Source of the DNA: a virus
Strand: one strand, 5' to 3'
Length of the DNA: 20,953 bases
IMG/VR virus record: IMGVR_UViG_3300030098_006112
Location: 1-20,953 of that record
Positions 7,541-20,953 of the stretch are shown piece after piece. Position 1 is the stretch's first letter. Each line of letters begins with the position of its first letter. A program made the translations under genes and the position numbers. Below the pieces are notes generated by a model. It searched no databases. It saw only the letters and a program-made list of their open reading frames with translations, and had not been told where the DNA came from.

Positions 7541-7636
7541 ATGGGTAAAAAAATGATAAAAATTAGGGGCAAAAATGATATGCTAAACAGGGTTTTTTTA
7601 AGTAGAATTTCTGATTATTTTGCCCCCAAAAATTAA
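7541..7636 (+). CDS. Possible 31-residue peptide before the connector gene
   Basis: ATG 7541 has AGGA at 7533-7536 as a fair ribosome site. It reads MGKKMIKIRGKNDML and continues 31 codons to TAA 7634-7636, whose bases overlap the AAGGAG site of the connector gene. The first codons repeat those of the frame at 7347. Its second half encodes one arm of an inverted repeat. If expressed it may be a leader peptide for the connector gene; otherwise it is a chance frame in a structured spacer. Confidence 0.3.
   Translation: MGKKMIKIRGKNDMLNRVFLSRISDYFAPKN
7566..7626 (+). repeat. Inverted repeat GGGGCAAAA / TTTTGCCCC
   Basis: GGGGCAAAA (7566-7574) is a perfect complement of TTTTGCCCC (7618-7626), across 43 bases that include a T7 run. 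The right arm ends about eight bases before the AAGGAG site of the connector gene (7634-7639). A stem here could affect access of ribosomes to that gene. A classical terminator is unlikely because no U-tract follows the right arm. Confidence 0.45.
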
Positions 7637-7645
7637 GGAGTTTTT

Positions 7646-8935
7646 ATGGCTGTAACATCAACAATAGAGTATTGCACAGATAGGGAAGTTAAGGATGTTT
7701 TTCCAAATATTTCAGGATTTGATTTAAAGCAAAGACTGTATAATTTTACATCACTTGGCAATAATGTATATGTTGCTTACAATACAGGATTGGTAACTCA
7801 ATTATACAAAGATGGCCAAGAAATGAATGCTGTGGCTTCTACAGGAGCTGTGGGAACTTGGTCTACAGCAACTACTGCAAATATATTAGCATCTCCAACT
7901 GCTTCTGAGTCAAGTGCTTCTCTGTTTAACGAAATTTCTTATAATGCCAGTTTTAGTGCAGGAAGTGAAGGCGATATAAAGCCAGGCTCCTATGGGGTTT
8001 TAGTTGGAAATACGGAATATGTCTATATTCAGGCTGTAGATACTGATAATAATAAATTAACAGTTTCTAGGGCAGCTCTAGGAACATCTGCTTCAGCTCA
8101 TTCATCAACCGTTACAATAGCCGAGTGGTTAGAGGTTAATGAAACCAATCATTGGTATTATGATAGCTATTTAGACCACTGCCTACTTTATTCTACTACA
8201 AACCCTAATGACAGTATTGTAGAAACTGGCGATGACTGGTCTACAATTAAAACAAGATTCAGAAGAAAAGCATCTAGGTTTGTAGAGTCTTTGCTTGATT
8301 CCAGGATTGCTAGAGAGATATCTAAAGACAGGGAAGGAAACTATCCTGAGGTTATTGTAAGAATGACTGCCCTTAAAACAGTTGTTTTCTTACTCCAGGC
8401 ACACGACCCTACTAATGAATTTATCGAACCCTTCCAGGAAGAATTTAACGAATTATTAGATGGAATAAGAAATGGCCATATAGTTTTACCTAACCAAGTT
8501 AGTAGGGATAGCTCAAAAGGTGTTATAAGGCATGTTTCTGTTAATGCCTCAACAACATTATTTCCTGTAGAGCTTCGAGGAAATTATAGTCGGTATGGTT
8601 ATGATTTGCTAAAAATATATATAGATAGTGGGGAGGGGGGTGCTATAGGAACAGCCAGGATGACTGTTAAAGCTAAAGATAGCGACCAGCTTAAAAATGA
8701 TGTAATCGTAGACTCAGAAATTATAACAGGAGATTTTCAGCCACTTGCAAGCGGATTGCAAATAAGGTGGAGTGCTGGAGTTATTGATGGTTCTACAGAT
8801 GTGGCAACAGCAGGAGATGAATACGAAATAGAGGTTTATAGTACCACCATGGATGCAACAGTTTCAAATGTAGGGAGTGTTGGCTTAAGTAGGGGTGGCA
8901 GAGGATATTATAGCCATTCTAGGAGAAAAAGATAA
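7646..8935 (+). CDS. Head-tail connector (adaptor) protein with inserted beta module
   Basis: This protein is likely to form the ring under the portal that seals the filled head and receives the tail. It has 429 residues, with a strong AAGGAG ribosome site before ATG 7646. The N-terminus (EYCTDREVKDVFP) matches the opening helix of HK97 gp6/SPP1 gp15-type adaptors. Their helical core seems to resume at about residues 205-285 (FRRKASRFVESLLDSRI ... IVRMTALKTVVFLLQA ... FQEEFNELLDGI). Between them (about 95-165) sits a beta module with IKPGSYGVLVG and SRAALGTSASAH, which recurs in the 5383 protein. A C-terminal beta domain (about 300-410) and an Arg/Gly/Tyr tail follow. Typical adaptors are near 100-150 residues, so this one is a large, embellished form. 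It is placed correctly just before the tail terminator. Confidence 0.7.
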   Translation: MAVTSTIEYCTDREVKDVFPNISGFDLKQRLYNFTSLGNNVYVAYNTGLVTQLYKDGQEMNAVASTGAVGTWSTATTANILASPTASESSASLFNEISYNASFSAGSEGDIKPGSYGVLVGNTEYVYIQAVDTDNNKLTVSRAALGTSASAHSSTVTIAEWLEVNETNHWYYDSYLDHCLLYSTTNPNDSIVETGDDWSTIKTRFRRKASRFVESLLDSRIAREISKDREGNYPEVIVRMTALKTVVFLLQAHDPTNEFIEPFQEEFNELLDGIRNGHIVLPNQVSRDSSKGVIRHVSVNASTTLFPVELRGNYSRYGYDLLKIYIDSGEGGAIGTARMTVKAKDSDQLKNDVIVDSEIITGDFQPLASGLQIRWSAGVIDGSTDVATAGDEYEIEVYSTTMDATVSNVGSVGLSRGGRGYYSHSRRKR

Positions 8936-8937
8936 CT

Positions 8938-9300
8938 ATGTATGAATACAAAGCAAAACTAAAAAGAGTGGTTGATGGAGATACATGCGATGCCTATATA
9001 GATTTAGGCTTTGATGTATCAGTTAAAAAAAGAATAAGGTTTTGGGCGGTAGACACCTGGGAGTCCAGGACAAGAGATTTAGAAGAAAAAGCAAAAGGCT
9101 TGTTAGCAAAAGAATATACTAAGAAAATGCTAGAAAAGAATGAAGGGTGTTTTAAGATAATATCTCATGGTGTTGGTAAATACGGTAGGGTCCTGGGAGA
9201 AATCTTCATAAAAGGCGAAAATAGCTCTTTAAATGAGCTTTTAAAAGAAAATGGACATGCTTACGAATATCATGGCGGAAAGAAAAAGGAATTTAAATAA
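8938..9300 (+). CDS. Staphylococcal nuclease-like (SNase/thermonuclease) protein
   Basis: This 120-residue, calcium-dependent type phosphodiesterase would cut DNA and RNA. The family's catalytic set is present at matching spacing: D13-G-D15-T16 (calcium site, SNase D21 equivalent D15), R34 (R35), D39-T40 and E42 (D40-T41, E43) in RFWAVDTWE, and R84 (R87) in KYGRVLG. The C-terminal helix NELLKENGHAYEY is also typical. It has no signal peptide, so it acts in the infected cell or within the virion. It starts two bases after the connector stop, with AGGAG at 8921-8925, and overlaps the next start (TAATG). Phage SNase-like proteins embedded among head-tail genes may trim DNA ends, degrade host DNA or be carried in particles. 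Which one applies here cannot be seen. Confidence 0.9.
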   Translation: MYEYKAKLKRVVDGDTCDAYIDLGFDVSVKKRIRFWAVDTWESRTRDLEEKAKGLLAKEYTKKMLEKNEGCFKIISHGVGKYGRVLGEIFIKGENSSLNELLKENGHAYEYHGGKKKEFK

Positions 9301-11850: not shown

Positions 11851-14479
11851 AGAACAACTGATATTACAATTAAGGGCACGAGGTGTAACACTAACCAAAA
11901 ACCAGCTTAAAAAACTAGATGCTTCTGCTAAGAAAGCCGGAACATCTATGAAAGGCTTAATTGGAGCTGTAGGCGGTATATATGCCTTAGGAAAGGCATT
12001 TTCATTTGTAGGCAAGGTAGGTATGGAGTTTACCTCTGCACAAAGCAATTTAGCAGCTATATTAGGCACAACAAGCGACAAGCTGGGTGCTTTAGACAAA
12101 ACCGCAAAAGAATTAGGTCGAACCACAAAATTTACCGCAGGCGAGGTAGTGTCTTTGCAGACCGAGTATGCGAAACTTGGATTTTCAACAAAACAAATAC
12201 AAAATGCTCAGAAAGCAACCTTGTCTTTAGCATCTGCTGTAAATGTTGACTTATCAACAGCAGCAGAGGTATCAGGGCAAATGGTAAATGCTTTTGGATT
12301 AGGTGCAAAACAAACTCAAAGAGCTGTTGATGTAATGGCCAAGTCTTTCAGTTCATCTGCTCTCGATATGGACAAATTTACAAACTCAATGACTTATGTG
12401 TCAGCAATCGCTGCACAGTCAGGAGTATCTATAGAGGCTACAACAGGAATTTTAGGAAAACTGGCCGATGTCGGCATTGATGGTAGTATTGCCGGTACAG
12501 CACTTAGAAGGGTTATGCTTGAAATGGGTAATGAGGCTAGCAAGCTATCTAAAAAAGTAGGATTTGCTGTAAAGTCTGATGAAGATTTATTTAGAGCACT
12601 TCAGATACTAAATGAAGAAGGGATGAGCACTGCTGAAATGACTGACCTGGTTGGAAAAAGAGCTGTATCTGCTTTTGCAAATATGCTAAAGATGTCAGAG
12701 GGGGCTCAAAGCCTGACTAATGAATTAAGAAAAGCAGGGGGTACTGCCGATGAAATGGCAGATGAACAATTAAAAAATCTTGAAGGAGATATGCTTAAAC
12801 TTAAATCGGCTACAGAAGGTTTAGCTTTAGATATTTTTGAATCGTTAGAGCCTGCATTAAGGCAAGCCACTCAAGCCTTAACTTCTTTAATTGGTTTTTT
12901 TGATATTGGTAGGATAAAGTCTTATTCATCTGCTTTAGGAGTTTTGGCTTTAGCTTGGGGTGCAGTAGCCTTAAAAACTAAGGCAGCAGGTTTTCAGCTT
13001 ACAAAGTTTAAGGCAAAGATGGTTAAGTCAGGAATAGGTGTTTTGATTTTAGGGCTAGGGGAGCTTATAAATTATATGGGTTGGTTTGACGATGAGGTAG
13101 ACGACTCTAATGAGGCGACTGAAGAATGGTCAAGAACTCTAACTACCCACCTTAGTCCAGCCATGAAAGATTTGGCACAAGACTTAGCAAACATCGACAC
13201 TGTTGTTGGTTTGCAAGCATCGATAGATGCTTTTACAGTCGCAACTGAGGACCAAAAAAAGAAAATTGATGAGAAGCATGATGCAATTTATAAAGAAGCA
13301 CAGTTGTTGAAAGAAAAGGGAGAAATTGAAAAAATTGGCGACTATATGAGTCAAAAACATTTGGAAATAATAGCCCCTATGACAGCCGAATATTTACAAC
13401 TTTTAGATAAAAGAAACCAGGCAGAAGAAAAGATGGTTTTGCTACTTGATAGTAGAGATAGAGTGAATAACCAACTAAGCAAATCAGATAAAGTGTTGGC
13501 AGGGGTGGGAAGCTCGGAATATGAAACTATGCTCAAAGATTTAAAAGATTTTAATACAATAAAAAAAGACCTAGGGTATACAGAAAAGCTAGAATTACTA
13601 CAGCAAGAACGAGATTATTGGACAGAGGTTGTTGAGTTATATGGATTGGGCTCTGAAGAACAAGCAAAAGTAGATGAGGCTTTTACAGCCAAATCCAAAC
13701 AATTAAAAGATGAAAACTTAGATGCTATACAAGCCTATTTTGATGCAGAGATGGAAATAACTCACGAACAAAATTTATTAAAAATTCAAGAAGAAATAGA
13801 TTTTCAAAGAGCTCTAATAGAAACAACTATGGAGGCTGGGGAAGAAAAAGAAAAGGCTCTTTCAGACTTAGCTGCTATAGAGAAAAAGAAAAAGGAAAAA
13901 GCAAACAAAGAAGATAAAAAGCTAAATGCTCAGAGGGTAGCAAATACAGTAGAAATGTATGGTAGATTAGCAGGAGGTATCGCTGGATATTTTGCAGTAA
14001 CTGGAAAAAATGCAGAGCTTATGACTAATTTGCAATATATTGAAGCGATTGCAAATACCTATAAGGCTGCTTCAGAAGCATATACAAGACATGGTGGTTG
14101 GCCAGGAGGTGTGTTGCCGGCTGCTATATCGGTTACACAAGGACTGGCCCAAGTTGCTCAAATTAAAAAGGCTAGGGATGAGGCTAAAGCAGCTGCCTCA
14201 AAATCAGTTACAGCAGAATATGGAGCTAATTTTGTAACAGATGGCCTCACAAATTTAACTGTTGGAGATAACCCTGGTGGCCAGGAGCTTGTTAATGTAA
14301 CTCCTTTATCTAGCCCTAATATGTTTGGGGACCCTGATGCTGTTGGTGGTGGTGGAGGACAAACAATTAATGTGCAAATAGAAGGTGGTTTAATTAGCTC
14401 TGAGTTTGTTGAAAATGAGTTAGCAGAAAAGATAGCCGATGGGGTTCGCAGAGGTGTAGACTTTGGGATTAATCAGTGA
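11843..14479 (+). CDS. Tail tape measure protein
   Basis: This 878-residue protein sets tail length and may form part of the DNA channel at ejection. Residues about 65-280 match the conserved core of TP901-type tape measure proteins (QSNLAAILGTTSDKL, LGRTTKFTAGEVVSLQTEYA, YVSAIAAQSGVSIEATTGIL, GIDGSIAGTALRRVML). Two hydrophobic stretches follow (about 365-378 and 398-415, GVLILGLGELINYMGWF), possible membrane-inserting segments. A long Lys/Glu coiled coil covers about 450-700. The C-terminal motif EYGANFVTDG ... VGDNPGGQELVNVTPL (from residue 792) is typical of siphophage tape measures. Using the common rule of about 0.15 nm per residue, the tail would be near 130 nm long; this is an estimate. 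It follows the chaperone pair. The assignment is secure. Confidence 0.94.
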   Translation: MAEEQLILQLRARGVTLTKNQLKKLDASAKKAGTSMKGLIGAVGGIYALGKAFSFVGKVGMEFTSAQSNLAAILGTTSDKLGALDKTAKELGRTTKFTAGEVVSLQTEYAKLGFSTKQIQNAQKATLSLASAVNVDLSTAAEVSGQMVNAFGLGAKQTQRAVDVMAKSFSSSALDMDKFTNSMTYVSAIAAQSGVSIEATTGILGKLADVGIDGSIAGTALRRVMLEMGNEASKLSKKVGFAVKSDEDLFRALQILNEEGMSTAEMTDLVGKRAVSAFANMLKMSEGAQSLTNELRKAGGTADEMADEQLKNLEGDMLKLKSATEGLALDIFESLEPALRQATQALTSLIGFFDIGRIKSYSSALGVLALAWGAVALKTKAAGFQLTKFKAKMVKSGIGVLILGLGELINYMGWFDDEVDDSNEATEEWSRTLTTHLSPAMKDLAQDLANIDTVVGLQASIDAFTVATEDQKKKIDEKHDAIYKEAQLLKEKGEIEKIGDYMSQKHLEIIAPMTAEYLQLLDKRNQAEEKMVLLLDSRDRVNNQLSKSDKVLAGVGSSEYETMLKDLKDFNTIKKDLGYTEKLELLQQERDYWTEVVELYGLGSEEQAKVDEAFTAKSKQLKDENLDAIQAYFDAEMEITHEQNLLKIQEEIDFQRALIETTMEAGEEKEKALSDLAAIEKKKKEKANKEDKKLNAQRVANTVEMYGRLAGGIAGYFAVTGKNAELMTNLQYIEAIANTYKAASEAYTRHGGWPGGVLPAAISVTQGLAQVAQIKKARDEAKAAASKSVTAEYGANFVTDGLTNLTVGDNPGGQELVNVTPLSSPNMFGDPDAVGGGGGQTINVQIEGGLISSEFVENELAEKIADGVRRGVDFGINQ

Positions 14480-17400
14480 TACAATTACCAGGATTTATAC
14501 AATATGAAAACGAAATAAAAGTTTCAACAATAAACTCTTTTGTTGTTATTACTTTTGCAGATGACTATAGAATTTTTATAGGAAAAACTCCAAAATCGTT
14601 TGATTACAAAGAAGATGGCAGGACTATTTTTGAGTCATTTTGGGGCTATGCAAATCCACCTGGTGTGTGGATGCCACAAGATAGAAATATTTACCCAAAA
14701 TGGTTTTTTGAAGATAGGGATTTAAAAATATCTACTATAAAAGAATCTTTAGACTTAAGAAAACATAAATATCAAATTTCAAGTGCATCAATAACAATAT
14801 CTAATTTAATTGCTAACGGAACAAGGTTTTCGGACCATTTATTTTCAGAAGAAACAGGCGAAATTAGAGAACTTGTTAATTCAAAAGTTGATATTTATTA
14901 TGGTGTAGAGGCAAGCACGAACATACCTCCAACTGACCCTGCATTTGGGGTAACTGCGGACCTAGTTAGAGTTTATAAAGGAACTATCGAGTCTGCTAAA
15001 ATGGATGGAAAACAGGTTCATTTGAATGTAGAGGATGAATCTCAGTTGTTTTTTAATAACAGAGAAATTCCTAGAACAACTATTAATCCCCAAAACACAC
15101 TTAGTGAGTCAGATATTGAAAGGCCTTATCCTATTGTGTATGGAGAGGTTTCAAGAGCCCCTCTAGTTATTCAAAGCCTCTCCCCAAACTCAACGGATTA
15201 TGGGTTTTTGCCTGACAATATTTATAAAGAAGATGTAAATATGAATGGGTTTGTAGGAAACCTAATGGTCCTTTTAGGGGATAATTATTACAATGTTGGC
15301 CAAACCACAAGAATAAGTGGGGATATGTTTTTAGATGAGGGGGCGGATGAGAACTTTAATCAATACACAGGGGCTATTCAATGGGAAGTATTGAACAACA
15401 ATTATATCTCTATGCCGAGAATTTTTACTGATTCAGATATAGATGATACAAATAACATCACTTATTTTGGAGCTAAAAATCTTCCTGCCAAAGGCTATAT
15501 TCAGGTGTTCGATGTTGAGTATTTAGACAAGGTTACTCTTACACAAAAATTTACTCCTTCAACAGGTGGTGGAGGATGTGATTATGTTGGAGAGGATTAC
15601 CTGCATAGCAATTATGGAAACGGAACTTACAGATTTCCATCAGATGGTGGGACCATAGATGCTAATGGAAAAGTAATTTATGTTTCTTTGTATCCTCTCC
15701 ATACATGGCAAACAGATGAAGGATTCGCAGACTACGATTCTTTGAATTTATCAGAAGGAATTTTAGGTGTTTTAGATGCCCTGGCTCAACAAGAGGACCC
15801 ATCTCTTGAAGATAATATTGTTTGGACAGACAATGGATATGAAATGGCTTATACTCCTATGTCTTTTACAGAGCTTGGTCCTGAATATAAAGGAGCATCT
15901 AGCGAGGGGGTAAGTGGTGCTAATAATTATGAAGGGTTGCATGGAAGGTGTTGGAAAGAATACCTGTTTCTTCTTTATCAGAATTGGCATTACAGTGGGA
16001 GTAGCAATATAGTTGAAATTTGGGATGAGTATATAGATGACTGGAATGAAAGAAACTACCCTACTCAACACCCTGATACAAATGATGATGGCAATTTAGA
16101 GGAAAGGACTTTTAGATGGGGAATTGTAGATTGGAAGGTTATGAAAGCGGTAGAAAAATTTATCTTTGAGCACACACAGAGTGTAAATGCTTATGGGACT
16201 GGTGGGACAATGGAAAATCCAAATTCTAGGTATTCGTGGGGATGGAAAGCCTGTGATGATACATCTAATATAAGATATGTTCCTAGTTCTCAAGGCCTTC
16301 CAACAACAGGAGGCACATCTAGTAATGAGTGGGAAAATGTTAGAGATTTAGAGTTACATCTTCCTCAATCATTTTATCTTTCAGGAACTATAACAGATAA
16401 CGATAATAAGGTTTATCCTGAATCTTACAGTATTGTAACAAAAGGGGCTTCATTTGTAGGCGATTGGGTTATGGCTGGAGATTACTTTGATACTGTTTAT
16501 GGGTACAATACATCGCAAGGTTACCGGATTAATGGTGTTTTGCCAACTTTTAAAGTTGAACCAATATCTTATGCTGAAGATTTCGATGGTGTCATGGAAT
16601 GGCATCCTAACAACACTGACTACCAAACTCCATGGCAACAAGTCATGAATATACGATGTAGTTTTGGGTGGAGTGAATGGCCATGGCTTAATTACGGATT
16701 AGAGTACCCAAGTTATGTAGGGTCTTGGGCTGATGTGGTGGCTCCAGGAAGGCATCAGCTTGGCACTATGTCAAATCTAGCATGGTCAAGGTTAATGGAC
16801 ACAAAGCCAACATTTTCTCCTCTTATTAGCTATAATGGAGTCTATGGAATTTACTGTGGAAAAGTTACTACTTATTCTTTTGACTGGATGAACCCTAGGT
16901 TAGAAAAAGGACTAAGGGGGAATTCAGCCCAAGAATGGTATTCAGGTTATCTTTCTATAGCATTTCAAGACAGAATACATTTAATAGCAACATCTGTTGA
17001 ATATCGAGTAGATAGCTATCATTTACCTGACTATCAGCAAAGATACAGGGCAATATTTGAGCTAGAATCAAAATCAACAACTAATATGGTTAAGAATTCA
17101 ACTCAGGCTTTTTATGCCGGTTATATTAATTTTAATGGTGCAACAACAGCAGGAACAACTACCTCTCACTTTCACTCTAGGGTAAAAATGGGAATGTTAA
17201 GTGATAGTGGAACACTCGGTCATACAGTTTTCACACACGAACATTTTGCTTCTTCGGATAGCAGTGGTCAAGACTTTAATATAGAGGCCTCTATAAATAC
17301 CGACACTGGATTTCTTTTAACAAACGACACTGGCAACGGTGTTAATAATATAGTCCCAAGCGATTATATGTTTGTTAGGGACCCTGATTGGAAAAACTTT

Positions 17401-18600
17401 GGAGATAAATCTGAACTAACATTAGAAGTAGGGATGGATGATTGGGGTGTTGCTGAGCACTGCTTTACACACTTTCAACTAAATACTGATGGGTTGTCTG
17501 TGTGTAGATATGTTTTTGTCGAAAATATAAAAGATAACAATTTTTTTATGACAGTCCAGGGCAGAACAGATGACGATATTGGGAGCTACACAGGCCAACC
17601 GAACAGCTTAATTAAAAAACCATCGGATATTTTGTGGCATTTAATGTCATCAGAATTAGGGTATGATGGCGATTCTGTTATAGGTTTAGAAGATGCGAGA
17701 ACTAACCATGGCAGTATGGTATATAATTTTAGCCTTGACGAAAAAATGGATGCTAAAAAATTTGTGGAGGATTTTTCAAAACAAACTAAATTGTTTCCTA
17801 AATTTGATGTAAGCACAGGTTTGTTAAAGTTTATAAATGTTGAAGATATGCCTTCGATGCAATATACTGTAAGCGGAGAGGATGTTCTTGATATTAAATT
17901 TACAAGAACAAAGGTTTCAGATATTATTTTAAAATGTCGAATTATTTATAATTATGATTATGGTTTAGGAACTTTTTTATCTTCAACTGATGCAGGGATT
18001 GTTAGCGATGTTGATGATTTTTTATACAACTACGGAATAAAAGATATAGATTCGCATTACTTAGAGTTGGAGTGCAAGCATATAACAGACCCTCTGACTG
18101 CTACAGAACTAAGAAATCATATATTAGAGGTAAATAAAAACCTGAGATTAGAAATGAGGCTAAATTTAGGACCCAAGTATTTGTTTATTGAGGCAGGAGA
18201 TGTTTTTAATTATAGTCATTTTGACAAAGATGGTAATCCTATTTATGTAGATGGTTTTCTTCCATACGGAATTGATTATCTTAATACGACTTCTGCTATC
18301 GGTGGCCAAGAAAGAACATCCTTTTTTAGGGTAACTTCTGTATCAAAAAAAGAAACAGGTGTTCAAGTTGTTGCCGAGCAAGTTCATCGATTAGAGCCTA
18401 GCTCAGTTCAATACGACCCCATGACTTATTCTCAGTTAATCTCAAGTGGTGTGGTTATAGATATGCCTGACACTGAAACTTATTATGTAGGAGATGTTAA
18501 TATGGATGGGATGGTTAATGTTTTGGATGTTGTGTCGATGATACAAGGTATCGTGGCAGGTTCTTCTCCTGATGAGCTAGAGGTGGTAGTTGGCCCATGA
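14476..18600 (+). CDS. Tail hub/tip protein with dockerin-like C-terminal motif
   Basis: This 1374-residue protein probably starts at GTG 14476, overlapping the tape measure TGA (GTGA). The N-terminal about 350 residues look like a tail-tip hub (LKISTIKESLDLRKHKYQIS, VRVYKGTIESAKMDGKQVHLNVEDE). The hub-like pattern resumes at about 1010 (RYVFVENIKDNNFFMTVQGR, KPSDILWHLMSSELGYD, TATELRNHILEVNKNLRLEM, FIEAGDVFNYSHF). The middle, about 365-1000, is Trp/Tyr/Asp-rich and unfamiliar, perhaps an inserted receptor-binding region. The extreme C-terminus (residues 1340-1351) is a perfect calcium-loop pattern: D-V-N-M-D-G-M-V-N-V-L-D. It is followed by a helix (VVSMIQGIVA), as in one half of a type I dockerin. 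Its place after the tape measure matches tail-tip order. Role as central tip/hub is likely; fine details are inferred. Confidence 0.78.
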   Translation: MIQLPGFIQYENEIKVSTINSFVVITFADDYRIFIGKTPKSFDYKEDGRTIFESFWGYANPPGVWMPQDRNIYPKWFFEDRDLKISTIKESLDLRKHKYQISSASITISNLIANGTRFSDHLFSEETGEIRELVNSKVDIYYGVEASTNIPPTDPAFGVTADLVRVYKGTIESAKMDGKQVHLNVEDESQLFFNNREIPRTTINPQNTLSESDIERPYPIVYGEVSRAPLVIQSLSPNSTDYGFLPDNIYKEDVNMNGFVGNLMVLLGDNYYNVGQTTRISGDMFLDEGADENFNQYTGAIQWEVLNNNYISMPRIFTDSDIDDTNNITYFGAKNLPAKGYIQVFDVEYLDKVTLTQKFTPSTGGGGCDYVGEDYLHSNYGNGTYRFPSDGGTIDANGKVIYVSLYPLHTWQTDEGFADYDSLNLSEGILGVLDALAQQEDPSLEDNIVWTDNGYEMAYTPMSFTELGPEYKGASSEGVSGANNYEGLHGRCWKEYLFLLYQNWHYSGSSNIVEIWDEYIDDWNERNYPTQHPDTNDDGNLEERTFRWGIVDWKVMKAVEKFIFEHTQSVNAYGTGGTMENPNSRYSWGWKACDDTSNIRYVPSSQGLPTTGGTSSNEWENVRDLELHLPQSFYLSGTITDNDNKVYPESYSIVTKGASFVGDWVMAGDYFDTVYGYNTSQGYRINGVLPTFKVEPISYAEDFDGVMEWHPNNTDYQTPWQQVMNIRCSFGWSEWPWLNYGLEYPSYVGSWADVVAPGRHQLGTMSNLAWSRLMDTKPTFSPLISYNGVYGIYCGKVTTYSFDWMNPRLEKGLRGNSAQEWYSGYLSIAFQDRIHLIATSVEYRVDSYHLPDYQQRYRAIFELESKSTTNMVKNSTQAFYAGYINFNGATTAGTTTSHFHSRVKMGMLSDSGTLGHTVFTHEHFASSDSSGQDFNIEASINTDTGFLLTNDTGNGVNNIVPSDYMFVRDPDWKNFGDKSELTLEVGMDDWGVAEHCFTHFQLNTDGLSVCRYVFVENIKDNNFFMTVQGRTDDDIGSYTGQPNSLIKKPSDILWHLMSSELGYDGDSVIGLEDARTNHGSMVYNFSLDEKMDAKKFVEDFSKQTKLFPKFDVSTGLLKFINVEDMPSMQYTVSGEDVLDIKFTRTKVSDIILKCRIIYNYDYGLGTFLSSTDAGIVSDVDDFLYNYGIKDIDSHYLELECKHITDPLTATELRNHILEVNKNLRLEMRLNLGPKYLFIEAGDVFNYSHFDKDGNPIYVDGFLPYGIDYLNTTSAIGGQERTSFFRVTSVSKKETGVQVVAEQVHRLEPSSVQYDPMTYSQLISSGVVIDMPDTETYYVGDVNMDGMVNVLDVVSMIQGIVAGSSPDELEVVVGP
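18490..18555 (+). other. Dockerin-like (F-hand) calcium-loop coding segment
   Basis: Codons for GDVNMDGMVNVLDVVSMIQG fit the calcium loop and exit helix of dockerin type I repeats. Ligand positions 1, 3, 5, 9 and 12 are Asp, Asn, Asp, Asn, Asp. Only one repeat is present where free dockerins usually have two. The segment is the last folded part before a short acidic end (DELEVVVGP). Confidence 0.72.
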
Positions 18601-19301
18601 CGGTAAATAGAAAGTTATATGAAAATCCTCCTTCAATAATGAAAAAAGGGGGTTACCGAAAAGAAGGAACATTGGCCTACGAAATAGAAAAAGAGCCTCA
18701 AGCAACATACTGTATTTTAAAAATCGTAAACGATAAAATGATTTTAGAAAAAGATGGCAGAATTTTAGGTCTATGTATTAATTATGAAGGTGCTGCCGAT
18801 ATACATGTAAGCCTTCCTGATGGATGGATTATAAACGAAGGCCTCAACCAAATTCTTATTTATACTGGTGGAACACAAGACTTGGAAGAAGAATTGTTTA
18901 CTTTTTCAGGTGTTATTAAATTAAAAAACATGGAATATGTTACATCAGAGCTAAAATTAAAAAGAGGTAAGTGCAAAAATGCTGTATTAAATCATTGGAA
19001 TTTAATGGCTCTTGAGGACCCTTTCATAAGTAATGATGCACAATTATGGAACAATTTAGAGTCATCTTATAATTCTTTAAATAAATCTTTCATGGCAAGA
19101 GATGCGGAAAAAAACTTTAAAGTTCGTAAGGATAGTAGCAGAAGAACAAGAATTTTTAAAGATGGAAAAGAGGTCAAAAGAATGACTATAAAGGTCCCAA
19201 AAAACAAAATAGACAATATTACAATAAAGGCTCCAAAAAAAAGAGTATATGGCCCTGTTAAAAAATCCGTAAAAATGGCCGAAACAAACAAAGGGTATTA
19301 G
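18597..19301 (+). CDS. Unknown protein of the tail-tip cluster
   Basis: This 234-residue protein starts at ATG 18597, within the hub stop codon (ATGA). Residues about 20-130 are beta-rich (YCILKIVNDKMILEKDGRILGL, ADIHVSLPDGWIINEGLNQILIY) and compact. Then comes a helical part (ISNDAQLWNNLESSYNSLNKSF) and a very basic C-terminus (about 165-234). The basic part repeats RMTIKVPKNKIDNITIKAPKKRV, two short strand-like units each followed by Lys. There is no signal peptide or enzymatic motif. Tight coupling with the hub gene suggests a tail-tip partner or assembly factor, but I do not recognise the family. Confidence 0.65.
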   Translation: MTVNRKLYENPPSIMKKGGYRKEGTLAYEIEKEPQATYCILKIVNDKMILEKDGRILGLCINYEGAADIHVSLPDGWIINEGLNQILIYTGGTQDLEEELFTFSGVIKLKNMEYVTSELKLKRGKCKNAVLNHWNLMALEDPFISNDAQLWNNLESSYNSLNKSFMARDAEKNFKVRKDSSRRTRIFKDGKEVKRMTIKVPKNKIDNITIKAPKKRVYGPVKKSVKMAETNKGY

Positions 19302-19302
19302 A

Positions 19303-20520
19303 ATGTCAAACGAAATAAATCAAGTAAAAAAAGTTAGGTTTTACCCATCTTCAATTTTAAACCACTATGTAACAAAAGGGTATACTCCTGTCCCCTATGG
19401 TACAAATGCAATTCCTTACCCAAGTATTGTGGGTTCTAGTACTGTTAATGGAAGTTCTTTTAGTCCAAGTTCATTAAGAGCTTTGGTAGGTATGCACCCT
19501 TATAAAGAACATAGTTTGGCAGTAAGTGTTACAAGTTCATCAGAATCTATAAATTTTTATTATCCTTTAGGGAATATAAATGAAGATAATTTTAATTGCA
19601 ATTATTTTGCTTTGCTTGGGAGCAACCTGGGAACTTTAAATGGCAAGATGAGGCTATATGCTCATAATTATTCTAATGGAAGTGATACTCTTTTGTCAGT
19701 CGAACCGATTTTAAATTGCCAGATTATAAATACTAATGAAATTACACCTACCTTTAATACAGCTTATTGGACCGACACCGTTGGAGAGAGTCCAAGCATG
19801 CCATCAAATGGAACTGTTATGGTTAAAATAGATGACTCTCCTTTAAATCAAACTGCAAATGTTGGCGGTGGGTTAAGAATTGAGATAGTGCCTGAAGCAG
19901 GTGGCAACAATAAATTTCTTGCAAATTTCTTTAGACTGGGAGGGTTCTCCTGGGGCAGGTATTACGATATGCCATTCTCTCCTGACCTATCGTATAGCAT
20001 TAATTACAGTTTTGAGGGAATAGATGTGAAAAGAACAAAGTCCGGCTCAGATACGATTTATGCTCGCTATCATAAAAGACCATTATTTAGCGAAAGATAT
20101 GTTCCTTTTGTAGGTCATAAAATAGAAGATTATGAAACCACACCAATATATCAGATAGGCAGAAGAACTTTTAAACTAAACTATTCTTCTTTTAAGTCAG
20201 GGTACACAAATACTTACGATGAAGAAACCGGATTTCTTTTTCCTAAAACTACATGGAATATGGATGAAGCACATTATAGTAATGACTTTTATTTTAGAGT
20301 TATGCACCAAACCCTGGGTGGAAAATTGCCTTGCATTTTTGAGCTAGACAACTCCACTCAAACCGATGACGATAATACTGCAAATAACTCATATTGGCCA
20401 TACGGAGAGCACAACGAATCTAATTTTATTATAGGAAGAATAGATAATAAAAACACTTCTTTTAAACACAAAAGCCACAAACATTATAACTTCAGTATAT
20501 CTATCCAGGAAACCTGGTAA
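19303..20520 (+). CDS. Tail-tip / distal tail-like virion protein
   Basis: This 405-residue protein starts at ATG 19303, one base after the upstream stop. It is rich in Asn, Ser, Tyr and Phe. The N-terminal part (about 1-60) is irregular (VRFYPSSILNHYVTKGYTP). The middle has beta strands such as ESINFYYPLGNINEDNFN and LRIEIVPEAGGNNKFLANFF. The last about 110 residues (IGRRTFKLNYSSF, FYFRVMHQTLGGKLPCIFELD, FIIGRIDNK, KHYNFSISIQETW) look like a distal-tail or minor-tail beta domain. That domain closes with a pattern seen in tail-tip proteins. It is the last gene of the rightward structural block, where baseplate or receptor-binding proteins are expected. Exact function is not shown by any motif; a receptor-binding role is plausible. 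Confidence 0.62.
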   Translation: MSNEINQVKKVRFYPSSILNHYVTKGYTPVPYGTNAIPYPSIVGSSTVNGSSFSPSSLRALVGMHPYKEHSLAVSVTSSSESINFYYPLGNINEDNFNCNYFALLGSNLGTLNGKMRLYAHNYSNGSDTLLSVEPILNCQIINTNEITPTFNTAYWTDTVGESPSMPSNGTVMVKIDDSPLNQTANVGGGLRIEIVPEAGGNNKFLANFFRLGGFSWGRYYDMPFSPDLSYSINYSFEGIDVKRTKSGSDTIYARYHKRPLFSERYVPFVGHKIEDYETTPIYQIGRRTFKLNYSSFKSGYTNTYDEETGFLFPKTTWNMDEAHYSNDFYFRVMHQTLGGKLPCIFELDNSTQTDDDNTANNSYWPYGEHNESNFIIGRIDNKNTSFKHKSHKHYNFSISIQETW

Positions 20521-20551
20521 TGACCTTCTCTAATCACAAACAGCACAGAAT

Positions 20552-20652
20552 ACACCTAGTCATTTCTCGTACAATCAACAGATAGGAACTACTAATCTAG
20601 CTCTAATACCTCTGATTCCTTCCTGATGGCTAGGTGTCTACCGAAGGGAATC
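20552..20652 (+). ncRNA. Structured RNA candidate after the tail operon
   Basis: This segment can form three sizeable stems. Stem 1 is ACACCTAGTCAT (20552-20563) with ATGGCTAGGTGT (20626-20637), 12 pairs with one wobble. Stem 2 is GATTCCTTC (20614-20622) with GAAGGGAATC (20643-20652), nine pairs with one bulged G. Stem 3 is CAGATAGG (20579-20586) with CCTCTG (20609-20614), six pairs with a two-base bulge. Stems 1 and 2 interleave, so they form either a pseudoknot or two alternative folds. In the alternative fold, stem 2 encloses an inner GGcTAG/CTACC hairpin. G+C is 42 of 100 at 20551-20650 and 6 of 50 just after. No U-tract follows, so it is not a simple terminator. Either strand could be the transcribed one. 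Confidence 0.45.
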
Positions 20653-20684
20653 ATAATAAAAATAAAAAAAGTTATTAAAATTAC

Positions 20685-20714
20685 TTGCACTATATTATAA
20701 AAATAATGTACATT
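20685..20714 (+). promoter_or_regulatory. Promoter-like sequence for the gene at 20747
   Basis: TTGCAC (20685-20690) resembles a -35 box. TACATT (20709-20714), 18 bases further on, resembles a -10 box. The surroundings are extremely AT-rich. It fits the start of a new transcription unit after the structural block ends. TATATT at 20691-20696 is an alternative -10 box without a good -35 partner. Confidence 0.45.
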
Positions 20715-20715
20715 A
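20704..20715. promoter_or_regulatory. Perfect 12-base palindrome TAATGTACATTA
   Basis: The palindrome overlaps the likely -10 box of the promoter at 20685. Its place and symmetry are those of a dimeric repressor or activator site. Whether a regulator exists in this phage cannot be told from this window. Confidence 0.4.
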
Positions 20716-20746
20716 CGATAGTAACAAAAACAAAAGGGGAAACAAA

Positions 20747-20953
20747 ATGAAAACAGAATATGTACAAAAACAAACAGAAAACGGAACTACAATAACATTA
20801 TTTTTAAACTTAGATAGTTTCGGTAATCACGATGGCACATACGAATTAGAAGTTGTTGATATAGATGGGAATGAGTCTGATAAATACGACTTTTATTTTA
20901 CTAATGAAAGAGATGCAGTTAGCGAGGCTAATCAAGCTATAATAGATAATAAA
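20747..20953 (+). CDS. Hypothetical protein, cut by window end
   Basis: ATG 20747 follows AAAAGGGGAAA (ribosome site, about 20732-20741). The frame stays open for 69 codons to the window end. The visible part begins MKTEYVQKQTENGTTITLFL and looks like a small alpha/beta protein. Two or three strands are followed by an acidic helix (TNERDAVSEANQAIIDN). It is acidic, with an Asp/Asn-rich turn at LDSFGNHDG and a second acidic turn at DIDGNESDKYD. It is outside the structural operon and has its own promoter-like sequence, so an early or regulatory gene is plausible. I do not recognise the family. Confidence 0.7.
   Translation, partial: MKTEYVQKQTENGTTITLFLNLDSFGNHDGTYELEVVDIDGNESDKYDFYFTNERDAVSEANQAIIDNK

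Follow-up and report, generated by a model that had tools for sequence, protein, structure and literature searches.

The 20,953-base virus fragment that was analysed as a whole and is called the window below (IMG/VR record IMGVR_UViG_3300030098_006112) contains near its right end a spacer of 226 bases behind position 20520, after which a codirectional gene starts at 20747. The question raised by this spacer was whether a functional RNA structure is encoded in it and, if so, of what kind. A sequence-only reading had described a 12-pair and a 9-pair stem that interlock at the end of the structural operon, and had compared them to attenuators and riboswitches.

The left end of the window was occupied by a leftward ORF that appeared terminase-like when read by eye. 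The head-tail operon ran rightward up to an ORF of 405 aa at 19303..20520 on the plus strand, the last gene of the tail operon. Relatives of this protein were recovered by profile and tblastn searches, and its identity to them was ~20% across the full alignment. In database comparisons the tape measure protein was most similar to those of Flavobacterium and Cellulophaga phages (44% and 35% identity, respectively). A large tail protein encoded at 14476-18600 was found, by eye only, to have a dockerin-like C-terminal end, GDVNMDGMVNVLDVV. The new promoter proposed in the sequence-only reading was confirmed as TTGCAC-18-TACATT at 20685..20714 of the plus strand, a promoter type also seen before the early genes of the relatives. 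Judging by the promoter position, the leader of the next operon would span 20715..20746 on the plus strand, with AAAGGGG ahead of the ATG. The first gene of this operon was an ORF on the same strand at 20747..20953, truncated by the end of the record, and no relatives of it were found. No ORF of at least 50 aa crossed the spacer on either strand, and no tRNA or tmRNA was found. A perfect 12-bp inverted repeat was also recorded, with its halves in the promoter spacer (20698-20709) and at the start of the next gene (20795-20806).

Both proposed stems were present in the spacer and interlocked. The first stem, S1, was formed on the plus strand by the 5' arm ACACCTAGTCATT (20552..20564) and the 3' arm GATGGCTAGGTGT (20625..20637). 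It was counted at 13 pairs, including 2 G-U pairs, and enclosed a loop of 60 nt (20565..20624, plus strand) without significant complementarity to the downstream leader. The second stem, S2, connected TGATTCCTT (20613..20621), lying immediately before the 3' arm of S1, with AGGGAATCA (20645..20653), both on the plus strand, by 9 pairs in a contiguous register; the 9-pair stem described earlier was the same helix drawn with a one-base bulge. The linker between the stems, given earlier as five bases, measured 5-6 nt in that bulged register and 7 nt in the contiguous one. The 3' strand of S2 was Shine-Dalgarno-like with no start codon after it, and 20645-20653 was rejected as a leader, as neither a fitting start codon nor a promoter was present. 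Hammerhead-like letters (CTGATG...CGAA), noticed by eye only near 20624-20645, were also discarded since the core and the stems did not fit and the Rfam search was empty. Separately, the stretch CTAGGTGTCTACCG at 20630-20643 showed a 14-nt complementarity to 9047-9060, within the mRNA of a nuclease-like gene (8938-9300). A match of equal strength occurred in 0 of 60 shuffles, and the target was not a leader.

The statistical weight of the stems was estimated by dinucleotide shuffling of 20521-20746. A single helix equal to S1 was obtained in 1 of 1000 shuffles and an interlocked pair equal to S1 plus S2 in none of 1000, while among 135 other 226-nt pieces of the window, 2 contained an equal helix and none an equal interlocked pair. 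With S1 given, S2 alone was equalled in 6 of 1000 shuffles against the short linker and in 31-39 of 1000 when all of the spacer downstream was allowed as partner. By this measure, S1 is well supported, and S2 only marginally so. The stability of the nested fold of the spacer was not unusual (z -1.09). This fold did include an inner helix, 20573-20577/20613-20617, as had been claimed for the interior of the loop, but the helix was weak and competed with S2. The GC content, previously described as an elevated island, was 0.39 at 20521-20660 against 0.36 in the whole window and 0.12 in the next 40 nt, a mild elevation. No intrinsic terminator (GC-rich stem, short loop, T-tract) was scored in 19200-20953, and no T-tract followed S1. 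The Rfam search of the window returned 0 matches at the gathering threshold and nothing credible at a permissive threshold, in agreement with the earlier statement that no known class could be recognized.

One reading of these results, already suggested from the sequence alone, is a genuine H-type pseudoknot built from S1 and S2, or an alternation between two states, in either case acting in cis. The interlocked pair was equalled by no shuffle and by no other piece of the window, and the summed stacking estimates were approximately -22 kcal/mol for S1 and -14 kcal/mol for S2. A linker of 7 nt over a stem of about one turn is tight and not impossible, as is known from frameshift pseudoknots. 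However, S2 given S1 reached only p = 0.006-0.04, the inner helix competed for one of its strands, and S2 was without a counterpart in the relatives. The pseudoknot was considered a plausible candidate structure, and a cis-acting pseudoknot or switch was judged an unlikely explanation of the element.

Close relatives were searched for in IMG/VR with the 405-aa tail protein, a 1374-aa tail protein and the 69-aa downstream ORF, and none were found. Both tail proteins gave no match against GenBank phages, and no prophage relatives carrying this tail protein were present in GTDB genomes. A search with the major capsid protein yielded 80 related contigs; these were used to assemble a distant family of the 405-aa protein, which was then extended twice. 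In 36 of 79 loci a convergent gene stood directly after the tail gene with no spacer. When a spacer lay ahead of a codirectional early gene with its own promoter, many relatives held a long stem with a large loop in it; other relatives had ordinary terminators (L156, L186) or no such structure at the same place.

The spacer RNA of the relatives was composed of a stem P1 of 9-13 pairs around 40-57 nt, which often contained a hairpin, P2. The structure was evaluated in an alignment of ten elements of one subtype (A6), in which 14 pairs of P1 and P2 were scored. Pairs were kept in 99.3% of the cells, compared to 44-69% for slid structures, and 7 of the 14 pairs had changed on both sides, a value reached by 0 of 500 shuffles. 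Covariation was observed at all 5 pairs of P2. Two members, L213 and L214, were added by the covariance model (E values of 2e-12 and 7e-11, respectively). No credible match to Rfam was found for five loci of the relatives up to E = 5-10, and the class is without a match in Rfam 15. The expectation of a functional RNA structure in the spacer gained support from its position, as a covarying structured RNA was found at the same place in at least 20 related phages.

A T-tract directly after P1 was observed in L095, L096, L213 and L214. Together with the ordinary terminators of L156 and L186, and with a significant S1 next to a marginal S2, this is consistent with S1 serving only to shape the 3' end of the late mRNA, either as a terminator with a large loop or as an RNA-stabilising hairpin that closes the tail operon ahead of the next promoter, and with S2 being due to chance. 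Such a structure would nevertheless be one without a T-tract or any scored terminator-like site in the window, and its 60-nt loop would be atypical for an intrinsic terminator. This explanation was regarded as a serious one, somewhat short of probable.

The loops of the relatives contained two segments complementary to the next leader in antiparallel register. One faced the bases immediately following the -10 box, where the mRNA presumably starts, and the other faced the Shine-Dalgarno region. The two pairings were GATAATCACA x TGTGATTATT plus CTTCTTGTTG x CAACAAGGAG in G046, TGTTATTCACA x TGTGAATAACA plus TTGCTCCGT x ATGGAGCAA in G027, and TTGTTTATCA x TGATAAACAA plus TATATCCTT x AAGGATATA in L260. 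Shine-Dalgarno pairings recorded in the relatives comprised the last of these, CTTCTTGTT x AACAAGGAG, and TTGCTCC x GGAGCAA. Tested against joint shuffles, 20 of 22 relatives showed the loop-leader match in one shared register (p 0.0005-0.03), a count that includes close kin and represents, by our estimate, perhaps eight to ten independent cases. The match of the loop to the adjacent leader was not significant in G032 (p = 0.11) and G072 (p = 0.32). Lower scores were obtained in most cases when leaders were exchanged between subtypes.

The 10-pair helix between the loop and the leader 5' end was paired in 88.8% of the cells, compared to 26-42% after sliding, in an alignment that was anchored on a core found by complementarity and was biased towards pairing. 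Changes on both sides were recorded for 8 of the 10 pairs, a result given by 0 of 500 shuffles, and these compensatory changes are stronger evidence for the helix than the paired fraction. Pairing and coevolution of loop and leader are supported at the sequence level. The loop partner in the relatives was an early-gene leader and the contact would be antisense-like, which speaks against a riboswitch or attenuator type. Interlocking survived in an altered form, as the relatives' loops pair with RNA further downstream, whereas S2 of the window had no counterpart there. The riboswitch-like interpretation was partly supported on the whole.

A second leader matching the loop was located by whole-genome scans about 5-7 kb into the early region. 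Second leaders matched the genome's own loop in 12 of 12 genomes examined, with p 0.001-0.005 for sites that had been chosen for a high score or for the same following gene, and these values hold for the chosen sites. The second leader mostly preceded a putative amidoligase gene (PF12224 in the one tested). The genome-specific variant of the loop was carried by the second leader in G030 (TGTGAATATC with GATATTCACA), G033 (CGATGATTAAC with GTTAATCATCG) and G018 (TTTGCGAATA with TATTCGCAAA). The sharing of the loop variant by second leaders argues that the RNA acts not only in cis but also in trans.

The anti-leader segment recurred 1.3-2.2 kb downstream, inside the early operon. These additional copies were located in the loop of a 9-10-pair stem in G027, G048, G077, L304 and L323, and the stem-loop fell inside a predicted reading frame in at least the first three of these. 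The second stem-loops occupied positions +1750 (G027), +1980 (G048) and +1710 (G077) relative to the late element, and 5971-6035 of L304 and 5778-5842 of L323. Compensatory changes were present between the second stems of L304 and L323. Their 31-nt loops, TTATTCACA and TTATTCGCA, differed at one base (A or G), and the leaders, TGTGAATAA and TGCGAATT, differed correspondingly (T or C). In addition, counting from the late element, a ATAATCAC copy was noted in the main subtype at +1299 in G005, +1831 in G015, +1880 in G032, +2222 in G046 and +2002 in G047. This copy lay at the end of a small gene, as seen in G005, G015 and G046, and in the cases inspected it was followed by a conserved hairpin, TGGGCATG...CATGCCCA, or GGGGATAAGG...CCTTATCCCC in G032, which possibly constitutes a further RNA element.

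The coordinated changes of loop and leaders might instead track a changing DNA-binding protein, if the TGTGATTA-type sequence of the relatives were a DNA operator half-site for a phage regulator, occurring in two early promoters and in opposite orientation in the late spacer. In both early promoters a TGTGATTA-type stretch was indeed found immediately downstream of the -10 box, and the orientation of a DNA half-site is irrelevant. The separate Shine-Dalgarno complementarity would be left unexplained by an operator, as would the place of the segment in the loops of covarying RNA stems, one of them within a coding gene. An operator was considered very improbable.

The window element was then compared with the RNA class of the relatives. 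S1 resembled P1 in its place between the last tail gene and an early-type promoter and in its strength. The 5' strand of S2, just before the 3' arm, was at the position taken by the anti-leader segment in the relatives. The best score for pairing of the window loop with its own leader (5' end plus Shine-Dalgarno) was -8.4 (p = 0.87), and a complement of the window leader had no plausible place within the window. Pairing of TGATTCCTT with GGGGAAACA of the window leader, drawn by eye, gave 8 of 9 pairs with one mismatch and was not significant. The window spacer was without a local P2 hairpin, and the family covariance model R1 did not match 20552-20637 up to E = 10 with filters off. An S2-like helix with a linker was not common to the relatives, and only L189 had an 8-pair helix of that kind. 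Membership of the window element in the class, in a diverged or functionally altered form, was inferred as possible, albeit doubtful.

Behind the tail gene of L161 (G072), the spacer contained a 15-pair long-loop stem which, like that of the window, had no complementarity to the next leader; it follows that the stem alone does not define the class. Elsewhere in the window, the best weak match of the relatives' family model was found on the minus strand at 7563-7628. A large-loop stem, AGGGGCAAAA / TTTTGCCCCC, was present there just 5' of an ATG at 7646, in a 427-base gap without a listed 50-aa ORF.

The preferred explanation, given less than even odds, was that the spacer at 20521-20684 is the place where the relatives keep a late anti-leader RNA. 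In the relatives this RNA would constitute the 3' end of the tail-operon transcript, which would probably terminate near P1. The class RNA, presumably transcribed, would fold into the long stem P1 with its large loop. The loop would pair with two stretches of early-gene leaders, one at the presumed start of the mRNA and one at the Shine-Dalgarno region. The simplest function of this pairing would be to stop early-gene translation late in infection, with a presumptive action both on read-through RNA, in cis, and on separate mRNAs, in trans. The copy of the element within the early operon could provide feedback. In the window, S1 corresponds to P1 in position and geometry. Within this model, the element of the window would most likely be a diverged or functionally altered class member, with a loop seed at 20613-20621 that could be masked by the RBS-like stretch at 20645-20653, giving the interlocked S2. 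A probability of roughly one in four was assigned to the complete proposal, namely that the RNA of the window is a divergent representative of a phage RNA class not described before, which is made from the 3' end of the tail operon, masks the 5' end and RBS of early mRNA in trans, times the early-to-late switch and has its seed self-masked by the interlocked second stem. The window is a well-defined case, representing either a class member without a target or an unrelated 3' structure.

Early-gene shut-off in lytic phages is known mostly from proteins. In the relatives, the late structured RNA coevolves with at least two early-operon leaders, and one late transcript could silence early translation. 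No description of a late 3' RNA directed against early leaders was found in the open-access papers searched. The sar RNA of P22 and the OOP RNA of lambda are small phage antisense RNAs that repress phage genes and overlap their targets on the opposite strand. The relatives' RNA would likewise be a small phage antisense RNA acting on phage genes, but its complementarity is short, bipartite and directed to separate leaders on the same strand. As with large-loop intrinsic terminators, a stem stands at the operon end and is followed by a T-tract in several relatives; the conserved inner hairpin and the anti-leader loop set the relatives' RNA apart from such terminators, and the missing T-tract does so for the window.

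The closest known RNA in action was C4 (RF01695). In phages P1 and P7, this antisense RNA blocks translation of the ant mRNA by pairing around its RBS, with the complementary segments likely located in loops, as outlined in PMC12197685 (citing Citron and Schuster 1990). The C4 model did not match the window or five loci of the relatives up to E = 5-10. Complementarity to the target RBS, the criterion used for C4, was found in the relatives and not in the window (p = 0.87). The relatives' RNA is, like C4, a phage RNA with loop segments complementary to the RBS region of a target. It differs in its genomic place, which is the 3' end of a tail operon and not an immunity operon, in its additional pairing with the presumed mRNA 5' end, and in its targets, which comprise two or more leaders; some phages also carry another copy within the early operon. 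The comparative evidence suggests that the relatives possess a phage antisense RNA of a new kind.
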